Shown here in pieces: positions 49,606 through 64,000 of a DNA stretch of 64,000 nt. The DNA lies in contig OW203763.1 of NCBI GenBank assembly GCA_934045905.1, forward strand, positions 18,854,948 through 18,918,947, given 5' to 3'. Each line of letters starts with the position of its first letter. Within the stretch, counting starts at the first letter, position 1. Source of the DNA: Leuctra nigra. Its lineage: Eukaryota > Arthropoda > Insecta > Plecoptera > Leuctridae. The position numbers were made by a program, and so were the translations under genes. The notes under the pieces are model-generated. The model ran no database searches, was not told the origin of the DNA, and saw only the letters and a program-made list of their open reading frames with translations.

Positions 49606-49835
49606 TCATCCTACATAACAATGACCTTGCTTCTCCTCCACACATGCTTCATTGCACATGGTCACCCCGCTTCCAATACACGCGGCGTACGCCATGATGT
49701 GTGGAAGAACGTTCTGCTCGTAAATGCCAGTGAAGAGATGGGCCCAGGGGCCCGATGCGTGGACAGTTACATCGTCACCTCCACGGGTCGAACTTGCCAG
49801 AGGCACCATACCAGGGAACATAAAGTCCTTGTCCA
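49606..49835 (-). CDS. Alp: ALP-B exon 11 (Zn ligand His changed to Arg)
   Basis: SSTRGGDDVTVHASGPWAHL: CGT in place of CAT at ALP-A H493. Ends CNEACVEEKQGHCYVG, no GPI signal. Confidence 0.94.
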
Positions 49836-61800: not shown

Positions 61801-64000
61801 GAAACAGTATAGTTGAATGATTATTAAACACTAAGTGATTATGTATTTGTTTAAATGAATTTGATAATTATCGTTATTATAATTCACAATCACAGCTGTA
61901 AGAAATTCTTATAATATTCCACCGGCATCCCGATTATCACACTCAAATGTGTGTTCTGGGCGTATTACTTTAATATCTAGCCTCTTTCACAATATTTTCT
62001 CCTAATTATAATTTAAATAGTACATTACCAAAGTAAATATAGTGAGGGATGTAAGCACAAAAATAGTGCAAAATGTTATACTAATTTTTCCTTGGGCAGT
62101 CTTATAGGAAATTTTCCGCTCTCCCATAATTTCGATATCCTCAAAAAATCGGGCGGCCATTTTGGGCCCCAGGGCTGTCCAAAGTGCCAAAAAGTGTGTA
62201 TTTCAGTGAAATTATTAAACTTTTGTAAATTTATTGTTCTTGTATAATAAACAATGTGTCAGGAACGTACGATAAAAAAATAAAATTTCTAAGTCTAACT
62301 AAAGTTGTATTTATTCAAGAAATTAAAGATGTCGGCGAGTAAGCTCTAAAATGACCGCCATTTTCAGGGAATTCGTGTTTCAAGGTTGCAGTTGCTTATG
62401 TATGTTCATACTATGGACATTTAACTTAAAAATCGATGGATCACGAAATTAACCCTTTGGGGGGTGGGGGGTCGAGACCCAAAGGTTTCGATGTGTGTAA
62501 AATAATCCATAGTAGATAGAGACTAATAATTTCTTGCACACACTAATAAAACTGTGCTCTGTTCGAAAAAATCACGAGATCCCAAAATTATGCCGCCATC
62601 TTCGATGAGACACGTTTATATTTCGTTATTTTGCGCACAGCAGTTGAAAAATGATGATAAATTTGCTACTTTGCTCATCCCTTGTTCACTGCAAAGATAT
62701 CGAGTCACCGCCTCCTGAACTAAAATTACATGTTAAAATCCCTATCTTGGGACGTTTTATCAACACACAAATGTAGTTTTAGGGAGAACGGTTGGAGATA
62801 CAGAGAATATGCAAATTACAAATGTCTTTATTATAATTAGGGCTATATTTAATGTCAAATAAACTTTTTCGTATATGGAGAACGTACTGAAATTTACGAA
62901 AAAAGAAATATAAGCTCTGTTTATCCAAGATGGCGGCATTATTTTGAGTTCTCGTATTTTTTTTTGAAGAGAGCACATTTTCTTTAGTATGTGCATGGAA
63001 CCATTTTTATCTAGCTAGTGTGGCCTATTGTATACACATCGAACCTTTAGGGCTCCACCCCCCACCCCCCAAAGGGTTAATTTCGTGATCCATCGATTTT
63101 TAAGTTCGAAGTCCATAATATGAACCTACATAAGCAACTGCAACCTTGAAACACGAATTCCCTGAAAATGGCGGCCATTTTAGAGCTTACTCGCCGACAT
63201 CTTTAATTTCTTGAATAAATACAACTTTGGTTAGACTTAGAATTTTTATTTTTTTATCGTACGTTCCTGACACATCGTTTATTATACAAGAACAATTAAT
63301 TTACAAAAGTTTTATAATTTCACTGAAATACACACTTTTTGGCACTTTGGACAGCCCTGGGGCCCAAAATGGCCGCCCGATTTTTTGAGGATATCGAAAT
63401 TATGAAAGAGCGGAAAATTTCATTTAAGACTGCTAAAGGAAAAATTAGTATCACATTTTGCACTATTTTGCCAAATGTATGTGCTAACAGCCCTCACTAA
63501 TAGTAAATGTACGAATTCATATCTAAGATAATTGATCTAGTTTTATTCTATTTTAATATCCTTATATCCTATTAGAGATATTATCCTAGGTCTTACCTAT
63601 ACAAAGGTACACTGTAAAAATAGAAAAGAAATTAGAAGATCTTATATTTTTACATATTGTAATTTAGTCGGGCTCTTGGTTCTCTTCACCAGGTGATATA
63701 AAAATTACATTTTCATTTCACATATTTTCATCAGTATAATTGAAAATTAACCCGGAATGAAATTGTAATTTTAAATAACATGAAAAAACTGTTTTATACA
63801 GCACAAAAAATAAATAAATAAAAAATCTTTTTACAGTACTTTGTTACCAATTCAGATTATTTATCAACATTTTCATAAAATATAAGACAGTGCAAAATAA
63901 CAATGTAGGTACTACGACTCCCTATAGATGAAATGTGTGGTTGAGACTCACCGTATTTGTTGCGCCAATTGCGCTAATTGCGCAGAGAAACACGATGAAG
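49606..64000 (-). CDS. Alp: alkaline phosphatase B, predicted pseudoenzyme (11 exons, 5' end cut by window)
   Basis: Exons 63952-64000 (partial), 60524-60596, 59752-59814, 57560-57780, 56141-56314, 55264-55455, 54465-54604, 53613-53809, 52696-52855, 50473-50621 and 49606-49835. All ten fully visible exons have the same length as in ALP-A and all splice sites are intact, with no stops or frameshifts. Four catalytic positions are changed (ALP-A numbering, placental equivalents in brackets): D99A (42), S149T (92), D377N (316), H493R (432). Retained: H212/T214, R225, E372, H381, D418 and H419. Loss of the nucleophile plus ligands of both zincs and Mg makes normal phosphatase activity very unlikely, yet the rest is closely conserved with copy A. 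Like A it has a signal peptide and no GPI tail. Possible roles: secreted binding protein, decoy or regulator of copy A. The eight bases holding the start codon lie outside the window. Confidence 0.93.
50473..50621 (-). CDS. Alp: ALP-B exon 10
   Basis: SGYPVRGNPILSAPNKGNDH ... ANGPSHHVNPDGSRVDLSQ, close to ALP-A. Confidence 0.92.
51076..52451. mobile_element. hAT-like element remnant in ALP-B intron 9
   Basis: Ends CAGAGTTACTCAACCTGCGG and (right, reversed) CAGTGGTACTCAACCTTTTT match hAT terminal style with a GC-rich GCGGCCCGC/CTTGCGGACC subterminus. The plus strand near 51274-51402 reads KMKPFTNS then a shifted frame MVKKCIVFPCE and LFDSFPNKQD, resembling the KPFT...KEC region of ZBED-type hAT transposases. 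It is frame-broken. No 8-bp duplication is visible. Confidence 0.55.
52696..52855 (-). CDS. Alp: ALP-B exon 9 (Zn ligand Asp changed to Asn)
   Basis: DLINYAHHETKAR in place of GHIDIAHHDTTTM: D377N. VVTSDHSQTMSI keeps D418-H419 but the nearby His421 is Gln. Confidence 0.94.
52980..53130 (-). repeat. tRNA-like SINE remnant in intron 8 of ALP-B
   Basis: Orthologue of 36685-36850, B-box-like GGGTTCGATTCCC at 53047-53059. Confidence 0.5.
53150..53612. repeat. expanded 14-bp minisatellite abutting ALP-B exon 8 donor
   Basis: About 32 copies of CAGATGTGACGAGG or CAGATGTGACGAGA, ending at the donor. Stop-free in all three minus-strand frames, producing spurious frames (HICLVTSASSHLSR repeats) that read through the splice site. 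Confidence 0.93.
53613..53809 (-). CDS. Alp: ALP-B exon 8
   Basis: YVWNRDELFDVDTKRTDYLL ... GFVLLVEG, keeping the Mg ligand Glu. The donor G|GTGAGT directly precedes the expanded minisatellite. Confidence 0.93.
54150..54390. repeat. dispersed SINE-like segment
   Basis: AAAACCCTGCCAG, TTTACCGGCATATAGC and TGAAGGATGGTGTAACC parallel the 37.43 and 38.3-kb copies. Confidence 0.4.
54465..54604 (-). CDS. Alp: ALP-B exon 7
   Basis: VVLGGGRGEFRSTNVIDEQG..., close to ALP-A and nearer the family consensus ILGGGR. Confidence 0.92.
55264..55455 (-). CDS. Alp: ALP-B exon 6
   Basis: VVTTGQVTHATPAAAYAHTS then NRNWEND. The His/Thr and Arg are kept. The 3' two thirds are identical to ALP-A at the DNA level. 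Confidence 0.94.
56141..56314 (-). CDS. Alp: ALP-B exon 5 (nucleophile Ser replaced by Thr)
   Basis: TYCVDSQVAGTAGAATALLS: Asp/Glu-Ser is replaced by Gly-Thr. Eleven of 22 residues here differ from ALP-A, while the final 28 residues of the exon are identical. Confidence 0.94.
56461..56676. mobile_element. 200-bp fold-back MITE, hAT-like
   Basis: Arms pair over about 60 bp (CTCCTGTGAGCTG.CTGTTATCTGAGGAAAA against the reverse). A near-perfect 8-bp duplication, GTTTGGAA (56461-56468) and GTTTAGAA (56669-56676), flanks it. ALP-A intron 4 has an uninterrupted GTTTGGAAAACCAATTCAAT at the equivalent site (41389). Confidence 0.75.
57560..57780 (-). CDS. Alp: ALP-B exon 4 (IGDGM changed to VGAGM)
   Basis: NIIYFVGAGMSVPTI: the bridging Asp is Ala (codon GCC). 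The preceding and following residues are almost unchanged from ALP-A. Confidence 0.94.
58049..59394. repeat. satellite of hairpins separated by long G-tracts
   Basis: Seventeen units plus a partial one, each about 67-90 bp: the dyad GTAGGTCTAGTCT...AGACTAGACCTAC around TTTACTTTGACGTAA, then CTTCC(A) and a G-tract of variable length (about 12-25, sometimes broken by T or C). Lies in ALP-B intron 3, which is 1,971 bp against 262 bp in ALP-A. Confidence 0.97.
59752..59814 (-). CDS. Alp: ALP-B exon 3
   Basis: GDQHVHKVVKRQTTAVNPEE..., 63 bp, phase 1 to 1, nearly identical to ALP-A after the first two residues. Confidence 0.88.
60524..60596 (-). CDS. Alp: ALP-B exon 2
   Basis: INLGPCDGSKTANCQDSVGN...; same 73-bp length and phase as ALP-A, with several substitutions. 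Confidence 0.88.
60597..62039. other. ALP-B intron 1, non-element part
   Basis: AT-rich sequence with blocks still alignable to ALP-A intron 1; a pyrimidine-rich stretch at 60770-60990 is unexplained. No exon seen. Confidence 0.4.
62040..63499. mobile_element. 1.46-kb fold-back element in ALP-B intron 1
   Basis: Two arms of about 730 bp are inverted copies meeting near 62770. Outer ends TAGTGAGGGATGTAAGCAC and GTGCTAACAGCCCTCACTA. Best-conserved blocks include AAATTAACCCTTTGGGGGGT and CGGGCGGCCATTTTGGGCCC. No transposase frame. Absent from ALP-A intron 1. Confidence 0.85.
63952..64000 (-). CDS. Alp: ALP-B exon 1 (signal peptide, partial)
   Basis: ...FIVFLCAISAIGATNT, donor ACG|GTGAGT; nearly identical to ALP-A exon 1. 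The first eight coding bases are off the window. Confidence 0.88.

Follow-up and report, generated by a model that had tools for sequence, protein, structure and literature searches.

Metazoan alkaline phosphatases (ALPs) are allosteric, metal-dependent dimers. Pseudoenzymes are well known in the kinase and cysteine-phosphatase families, and the prozymes of trypanosomes belong to enzyme families other than alkaline phosphatase. STYX-type pseudophosphatases are described as having kept the phosphatase fold and binding and lost catalysis (PMC10211241), and the prozymes of trypanosome DHS and AdoMetDC as inactive paralogues by which the partner enzyme is activated (PMC3663545, PMC5201418). Thr is described as the catalytic residue (Thr89) of a bacterial alkaline phosphatase, SPAP from Sphingomonas, the zinc ligands of which are given as Asp49, Asp300, His304, Asp345, His346 and His491 (PMC3145672). 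The term "alkaline phosphatase" has no occurrence in the pseudophosphatase review PMC10211241 or in PMC5106787, and no pseudoenzyme on the alkaline phosphatase fold was found among the listed titles and abstract starts of open-licence papers.

Two alkaline phosphatase genes, ALP-A and ALP-B, lie on the minus strand of the window, the 64,000-bp stretch of Leuctra nigra DNA that was analysed. ALP-A (33906-45404) consists of 11 exons (exons 1-6: 45404-45348, 43978-43906, 42961-42899, 42636-42416, 40792-40619, 39307-39116; exons 7-11: 37822-37683, 37206-37010, 36546-36387, 35568-35420, 34135-33906) and retains 12 out of 12 catalytic positions. ALP-B (64000-49606, cut by the window end) likewise has 11 exons, whose lengths match those of ALP-A one for one (57, 73, 63, 221, 174, 192, 140, 197, 160, 149 and 230 bp). 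Open frames, intact GT-AG sites and the exon lengths of ALP-A had been claimed for ALP-B by an earlier, sequence-only reading, and the models of both copies bear this out: every intron border of the two genes is GT-AG (20 out of 20 borders intact in ALP-B), and the ALP-B frame runs for 551 codons plus stop, as in ALP-A, with no internal stop and no frameshift. Exon 1 (63952-64000), the putative signal-peptide exon, is clipped by 8 bases at the window end; the adjoining contig bases read ATG AGG AG, thus the frame is complete and the start codon intact. The two proteins differ by 79 amino acids. The window also encodes a Rap2 GTPase with 95% identity to a Timema sequence.

ALP-B belongs to the alkaline phosphatase family, matching Pfam Alk_phosphatase (PF00245) with 415.1 bits (cut-off 24.4) over profile positions 1-423 of 423, and the shrimp enzyme (PDB code: 1shn) over query residues 63-535 (E 3e-131); the named ALP matches of highest identity are from insects. 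The N-terminus is hydrophobic (Kyte-Doolittle mean 2.60, residues 4-16) and the C-terminus has no hydrophobic tail, and from just these two features ALP-B is predicted to be secreted.

The active site of ALP-B is extensively altered (position numbers are those we take to apply in PLAP). The sequence-only reading had named four replacements, all of which are present in the aligned protein: D42A in exon 4 (57560-57780; VGAGM, codon 99), S92T in a heavily rewritten loop of exon 5 (56141-56314; VAGTAG, codon 149), D316N in exon 9 (52696-52855; LINYAHH, codon 377) and H432R in exon 11 (49606-49835; STRGGDD, codon 493), the exon that also carries the stop codon and, next to H432R, E491S (SSTRGG, codon 491). 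It had missed a fifth loss, H360Q (SDHSQ, codon 421), also in exon 9; position 360 is presumably a second-shell His. Exons 2 (60524-60596), 3 (59752-59814), 7 (54465-54604) and 10 (50473-50621) complete the gene. H153, Thr at S155 and the phosphate-binding R166 are retained in exon 6 (55264-55455) and E311 in exon 8 (53613-53809), as are H320, D357 and H358. By site, the Zn1 ligands D316, H320 and H432 have become N, H and R (one of three retained), the Zn2 ligands D42, S92, D357 and H358 are A, T, D and H (two of four), and the Mg ligands D42, S/T155 and E311 are A, T and E (two of three). The standard residues stand opposite the changes of ALP-B in the alignment with 1shn. They are near-invariant among the 156 homologous sequences taken from the matches listed: position 42 is D in 152, a gap in three and G in one (an 807-aa model from Bagarius yarrelli), position 92 is S and position 316 is D in all 156, and positions 360 and 432 are each H in 155 with one gap; the gaps belong to models of 416, 440, 464 and 853 aa.

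The paralogues C to H, six genes of the same genome, retain all 12 catalytic positions, and exons 4-10 of paralogue C equal those of ALP-A and ALP-B in length. A more distant paralogue on C1 has Asn at H360 and retains the other 11 positions, and the C2 gene retains 12 of 12. In the C7 gene exon 5, which carries S92, lies outside the stretches read, so its residue check covers the other positions. The C13:14.70M gene appeared to be a second dead copy, with Ser at two ligand positions; the alignment had run into an intron, and the true exon reads VEGGLIDQAHH.

The Ser nucleophile of active metazoan alkaline phosphatases is absent from ALP-B, which has Thr at S92. The loss of five near-invariant residues is in line with the earlier claim that catalysis is gone. 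S92T by itself would be no proof of it, since a bacterial alkaline phosphatase is reported to work with a catalytic Thr (PMC3145672); in the E. coli enzyme, Ser to Thr lowers kcat ~4000-fold (as cited in PMC11677397). The stronger case lies in the loss of two of the three Zn1 ligands together with the bridging Asp, with which Zn1 and the Zn2/Mg cluster would fail to assemble, and ALP-B is predicted to lack phosphatase activity.

A codon model of eight genes (469 codons, exons 4-11) gave ALP-B an omega of 1.76 in the pocket, defined after the alignment was seen as the codons within 6 residues, along the chain and not in space, of the 12 catalytic positions, and of 0.33 elsewhere. One omega for both partitions was rejected (p 1.6e-7), as was neutrality in both (p 5e-7), and the contrast was robust to windows of 3 and 10 residues, to removal of the 12 catalytic codons and to removal of exons 6-7. 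Outside the pocket ALP-B is under purifying selection: omega there does not differ from that of the paralogues (p 0.26) and is below 1 with windows of 6, 3 and 10 residues (p 0.033, 0.044 and 0.019, respectively), but the difference from 1 loses significance once the catalytic codons (p 0.054) or exons 6-7 (p 0.12) are removed. With C as the sole outgroup, omega was 0.74 unpartitioned, 2.00 in the pocket and 0.49 in the rest, the last not significantly below 1 (p 0.17). The sequence-only reading had held that selection keeps the fold and had put forward dN/dS as a check. The absence of any coding indel and the paralogue-like constraint outside the pocket agree with it, however, the unpartitioned omega of 0.59 differs neither from 1 (p 0.20) nor from that of ALP-A (p 0.46), and the signal emerges only after the pocket is split off.

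With its frame intact and its catalytic residues lost, ALP-B is very probably a maintained pseudoenzyme. We propose, with slightly more confidence than doubt, that it is an intact duplicate of ALP-A, predicted to be secreted, to keep the fold and to be inactive, and that it likely pairs with ALP-A as the catalytically silent half of a dimer; that such partnership is its main role we suggest tentatively. The two proteins differ by only 2 of 22 residues in the N-terminal arm and 1 of 31 in the interfacial helix, which we take to be the dimer-facing parts, and because these are nearly unchanged ALP-A/ALP-B heterodimers would be able to form. The crown region differs by 12 of 63 residues, which could alter dimer contacts. 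In a mixed pair ALP-B would raise, lower or localise the activity of ALP-A, as dead paralogues do elsewhere, and its own pocket, released from catalysis, would drift or be reshaped.

The main rival, which we regard as rather unlikely, is that ALP-B is a ligand-binding protein (a sink, carrier or decoy), whose reshaped pocket, in which one zinc ligand has given way to Arg and Arg166 is retained, would bind a ligand, phosphate-bearing or not, but would not turn it over. The retention of R166, E311, H320, D357 and H358 and the pocket omega of 1.76 are in line with it, however, the excess of that omega over 1 lacks significance (p 0.13), and relaxation accounts for the pocket equally well. Several pocket residues of ALP-B (e.g., L156, S158, A165, L167, L375, Y378 and A385) are those of paralogue D, itself a gene with 12 of 12 catalytic positions, and this also speaks for binding. 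Since the codons mostly differ (judged by eye), recent gene conversion from paralogue D is an unlikely origin of the pocket, and the shared residues suggest convergence on a pocket shape. Conversion between ALP-A and ALP-B is another matter: synonymous divergence is 0.032 in exon 6 and 0.033 in exon 7 against 0.158 overall, and a 265-bp block of ALP-A (39101-39365, minus strand) matches ALP-B 55249-55513, which includes exon 6, with 10 mismatches, thus exon 6 and its flank look converted. Eight of the ten mismatches fall within 30 bp (39246-39274, codons 208-217; permutation p 6e-5), a further point for ligand binding.

The ALP-A pocket has itself evolved faster than the paralogue background; ALP-A has Ser at 213, Ala in 120 of 120 homologues, and Glu at 148, Asp in 119 of 120. 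Common pocket and rest omegas for ALP-A and ALP-B are not rejected (p 0.43), hence rapid pocket change is not peculiar to ALP-B. The protein branch is longer in ALP-B (0.123 vs 0.042 in ALP-A), and synonymous codon changes number 10 in each copy, with 15 undecided. Polarised with C alone, 31 amino-acid changes fall to ALP-B, 11 to ALP-A and 37 are undecided; with six paralogues the counts differ, at 26, 14 and 25, respectively. By the latter polarisation 9 of the 14 ALP-A changes and 14 of the 26 ALP-B changes lie within 6 residues of catalytic positions, and the clustering on the ALP-A side weakens any claim that ALP-B alone is unusual. A bolder reading, which we consider improbable, is that the two copies co-evolved after duplication and that positive selection turned the ALP-B site into a zinc-free anion pocket, Arg replacing zinc, that would trap an extracellular phosphate-bearing ligand or tune ALP-A inside an obligate dimer. 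If true, this would make ALP-B a pseudophosphatase that is secreted and has the fold of an alkaline phosphatase.

That ALP-B is a young pseudogene, which lost catalysis first and has its stops and frameshifts still to come, appears very unlikely. The unpartitioned omega would allow it, and 12.5% of simulated copies remain stop-free under 60 unconstrained substitutions, however, indels tell otherwise. Between the two copies, alignable non-coding DNA differs by ~15% and contains 92 alignment gaps over 2,989 bases (116 in 2,991 if eight tandem-array rows, holding 24 gaps and 2 bases, are counted), against no indel in the coding sequence; by simple arithmetic, this rate predicts ~25 indels in 1,656 unconstrained coding bases of one lineage. 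To see none at all would be plausible only had constraint been lifted within about the last 12% of the history of ALP-B. The intact start codon and splice borders and the very different rates of pocket and rest also stand against a young pseudogene. An old, decaying pseudogene is ruled out by the same lack of coding indels and by the rejection of neutrality in both partitions; ALP-B displays no stop, frameshift, broken splice border or uniform neutral change.

An enzyme with altered chemistry, using for instance the Thr as nucleophile with another metal or none, is highly unlikely. Most ENPPs are described as having a catalytic Thr (PMC11677397), as is a bacterial alkaline phosphatase (PMC3145672), and the bacterial enzyme is reported to have its third metal site abolished, a Lys being the proposed substitute, and to lack the key Arg; both of its zinc sites, however, are present (PMC3145672). 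ALP-B has the Thr but none of the near-invariant zinc ligands D42, D316 and H432, thus it does not conform to the Thr-nucleophile alkaline phosphatase/NPP type either. Sequencing or assembly errors in the lost codons are a negligible prospect, as the five changes spread over four exons, are accompanied by nearby replacements and shift no frame, and the pocket differs far beyond five codons.

We therefore return to ALP-B as a maintained pseudoenzyme and set it beside the known systems. It belongs to the same family as the shrimp (PDB codes: 1shn, 1k7h) and insect alkaline phosphatases, with near full-length alignment, but unlike them it lacks D42, S92, D316, H360 and H432 and a hydrophobic C-terminal tail. 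Like SPAP it has Thr at the nucleophile position, however, it is missing the equivalents of Asp49, Asp300 and His491, an equivalence that we assume by position. As metazoan alkaline phosphatases are allosteric dimers, ALP-B, disarmed with its body nearly unchanged, would offer a natural test of this fold without catalysis, and the ALP-A/ALP-B pair one of a dead subunit controlling a live one, with the adjoining ALP-A and six paralogues carrying all catalytic residues as ready controls in one genome. Like the prozymes, ALP-B would be a dead paralogue of the active subunit of an oligomeric enzyme. STYX-type pseudophosphatases are built on a Cys-based fold, whereas that of ALP-B is the alkaline phosphatase fold.

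ALP-A (45404..33906) and ALP-B (64000..49606, cut by the window edge), two neighbouring alkaline phosphatase duplicates on the minus strand, are arranged head to tail at a spacing of 4.2 kb, with B as the upstream copy. Both have 11 exons with GT-AG borders, and the lengths of all 11 are identical between the copies. Exon 1 of ALP-B is truncated by the window end, and an intact ATG is found in the adjoining contig bases; completed from these, each gene comprises 551 codons, and the two proteins differ by 79 amino acids. The intact frame, canonical borders and ALP-A-like exon lengths that a sequence-only reading had ascribed to ALP-B are confirmed. 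Elsewhere the window holds an intronless-looking Rap2-type GTPase reading frame (1018-1605, minus strand), a run of 200 N (2976-3175) and a phospholipid scramblase exon (14146-14604, plus strand).

All 12 catalytic positions, numbered as in placental alkaline phosphatase (PLAP), are kept in the alignment in ALP-A and in six other alkaline phosphatase genes of the genome (paralogues C-H). ALP-B has A, T, H, T, R and E at D42, S92, H153, S155, R166 and E311, and N, H, D, H, Q and R at D316, H320, D357, H358, H360 and H432. Its five changed positions are invariant in 156 listed homologues, barring gaps and one Gly at D42; the four changes reported earlier (42, 92, 316 and 432) are all among them. 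Two Zn1 ligands, D316 and H432, are missing from ALP-B, and Ala stands in for the bridging D42. The Thr nucleophile alone is not decisive, because SPAP, a Sphingomonas alkaline phosphatase, uses Thr89 as nucleophile while retaining both zinc sites (PMC3145672). A Ser to Thr change of the nucleophile in the Escherichia coli enzyme lowers kcat ~4000-fold (as cited in PMC11677397). The zinc-site and bridging-Asp losses together with the evidence on Thr therefore make loss of catalysis in ALP-B a strong prediction. ALP-A, while keeping all catalytic residues, deviates at two near-invariant codons, 148 (Glu; Asp in 119/120 homologues) and 213 (Ser; Ala in 120/120).

A Pfam scan of the genome (536 Mb, 144 contigs) located further alkaline phosphatase loci on contigs C1, C2, C7, C9, C10 and C13. 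ALP-A and ALP-B are mutual closest matches, followed by the C9 gene (paralogue C), which shares 57-75% identity with ALP-B, exon by exon. A distant paralogue on C2 keeps 12/12 catalytic positions and one on C1 has Asn at 360; in the C7 paralogue the exon with S92 lies outside the sequence examined, and an apparent catalytic loss in the C13:14.70M gene was an alignment error. Against 5.8 billion proteins, searched twice with 7,993 candidates scored each time, nothing exceeded 58% identity to ALP-A or ALP-B among the best 120 of 1,884 and the best 120 of 7,827 hits, so that no orthologue of ALP-B was seen among the matches listed.

Coding divergence between the copies (dS 0.158, dN 0.076) accompanies a corrected divergence of 0.153 in alignable non-coding sequence. 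With all rows included, gaps open 116 times in the 2,991 bases of the non-coding alignment; with eight tandem-array rows excluded and two more, which partly overlap the array, retained, the count is 92 in 2,989 bases. The coding sequence contains no gap. By arithmetic from the non-coding gap rate, ~25 coding indels would be expected on an unconstrained B lineage alone. Under simulated unconstrained substitution, 12.5% of copies were stop-free after 60 changes and 3% after 100, so missing stops are less informative than missing indels.

In a protein tree of the eight paralogues, the branch length is 0.123 for B and 0.042 for A. A purpose-built codon model with the topology (A,B,(C,(((D,H),(E,F)),G))) was applied to the 469 codons of exons 4-11 covered by paralogue C, exons 1-3 being excluded; the pocket class (codons no more than 6 residues from one of the 12 catalytic positions) was chosen after the alignment had been read. 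Omega in pocket and rest was 1.76 and 0.33 for B, 0.75 and 0.24 for A, and 0.096 and 0.211 for the background. Equality of the two classes in B was rejected (p 1.6e-7), as was neutrality of B in both (p 5e-7). The B pocket differed from the background (p 3e-14) and not significantly from 1 (p 0.13); the B rest differed from 1 (p 0.033) and not from the background (p 0.26). The A pocket also differed from the background (p 1e-4), and likeness of A and B in both classes was not rejected (p 0.43). With windows of 3 and 10, without the 12 codons or without exons 6-7, the pocket/rest contrast in B held at p ≤4e-6, and the B rest against 1 gave p 0.019 to 0.12. Unpartitioned, B omega was 0.59, no different from 1 (p 0.20) or from A (p 0.46), and 0.74 with paralogue C as sole outgroup. 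Together, these tests therefore describe a rewritten pocket in an ordinary, constrained body, and the pocket change reads as rewriting without significant excess over neutrality. The proposal that selection keeps the fold while catalysis is gone is partly supported, by the constrained rest and the lack of coding indels; the unpartitioned omega, not significantly below 1, does not bear it out.

A 265-bp block around exon 6 (39101-39365 in A, 55249-55513 in B) has only 10 mismatches, eight of them inside 30 bp (codons 208-217) adjoining H153/T155 (p 6e-5). Gene conversion has probably homogenised this stretch, and the pocket segment was either spared or altered afterwards.

In paralogue C the start of exon 10 with its 3' splice site is tandemly repeated in ~160-bp units, 35 copies including the last, full-length exon (L012:6194-10000 and on into L013:1-1756, adjoining genome stretches; C9:23340194-23345756). 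Similar arrays of exon pieces, several with a splice site, affect exons 4, 5, 6 and 9 of other alkaline phosphatase genes (L018:2147-3906, L018:995-1426, L019 from 9690, C10:19967474-19969081, C10:19899614-19901007 and L012:1808-2080), array formation thus recurring within one gene family; that of exon 4 has ~13 units of 137 bp, and the GDGMSVPT stretch is absent from the aligned copies. Minisatellites of 14-15 bp begin no more than a few bases from a donor site, that of exon 8 in both ALP-A and ALP-B and that of exon 6 in paralogue C (window 53156-53608 and 36849-37006; L012:2197-2742). Intron 3 of ALP-B (58058-59394) carries ~17 copies of a 75-bp unit with long G runs between self-complementary arms, and a long inverted repeat spotted by eye in its intron 1 (62070-63480) is probably a mobile element.

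ALP-B is likely a maintained pseudoenzyme. With region limits taken from the human enzyme, the copies differ at 2 of 22 residues in the N-terminal arm, 1 of 31 in the interfacial helix and 12 of 63 in the crown. With arm and helix nearly identical, ALP-A and ALP-B could pair as heterodimers, which is plausible. That ALP-B instead binds a ligand is a rival and somewhat less likely proposal, favoured by the retained R166 and by pocket residues matching those of paralogue D; the two roles are not separable by sequence alone. No pseudoenzyme of the alkaline phosphatase fold was found in the titles and abstract starts of the open-licence literature matches listed. For heterodimers in which ALP-B would act on ALP-A, precedents are offered by trypanosome enzymes, in which dead paralogues are reported to control live ones (PMC3663545, PMC5201418), and by the modes of action reviewed in PMC10211241.
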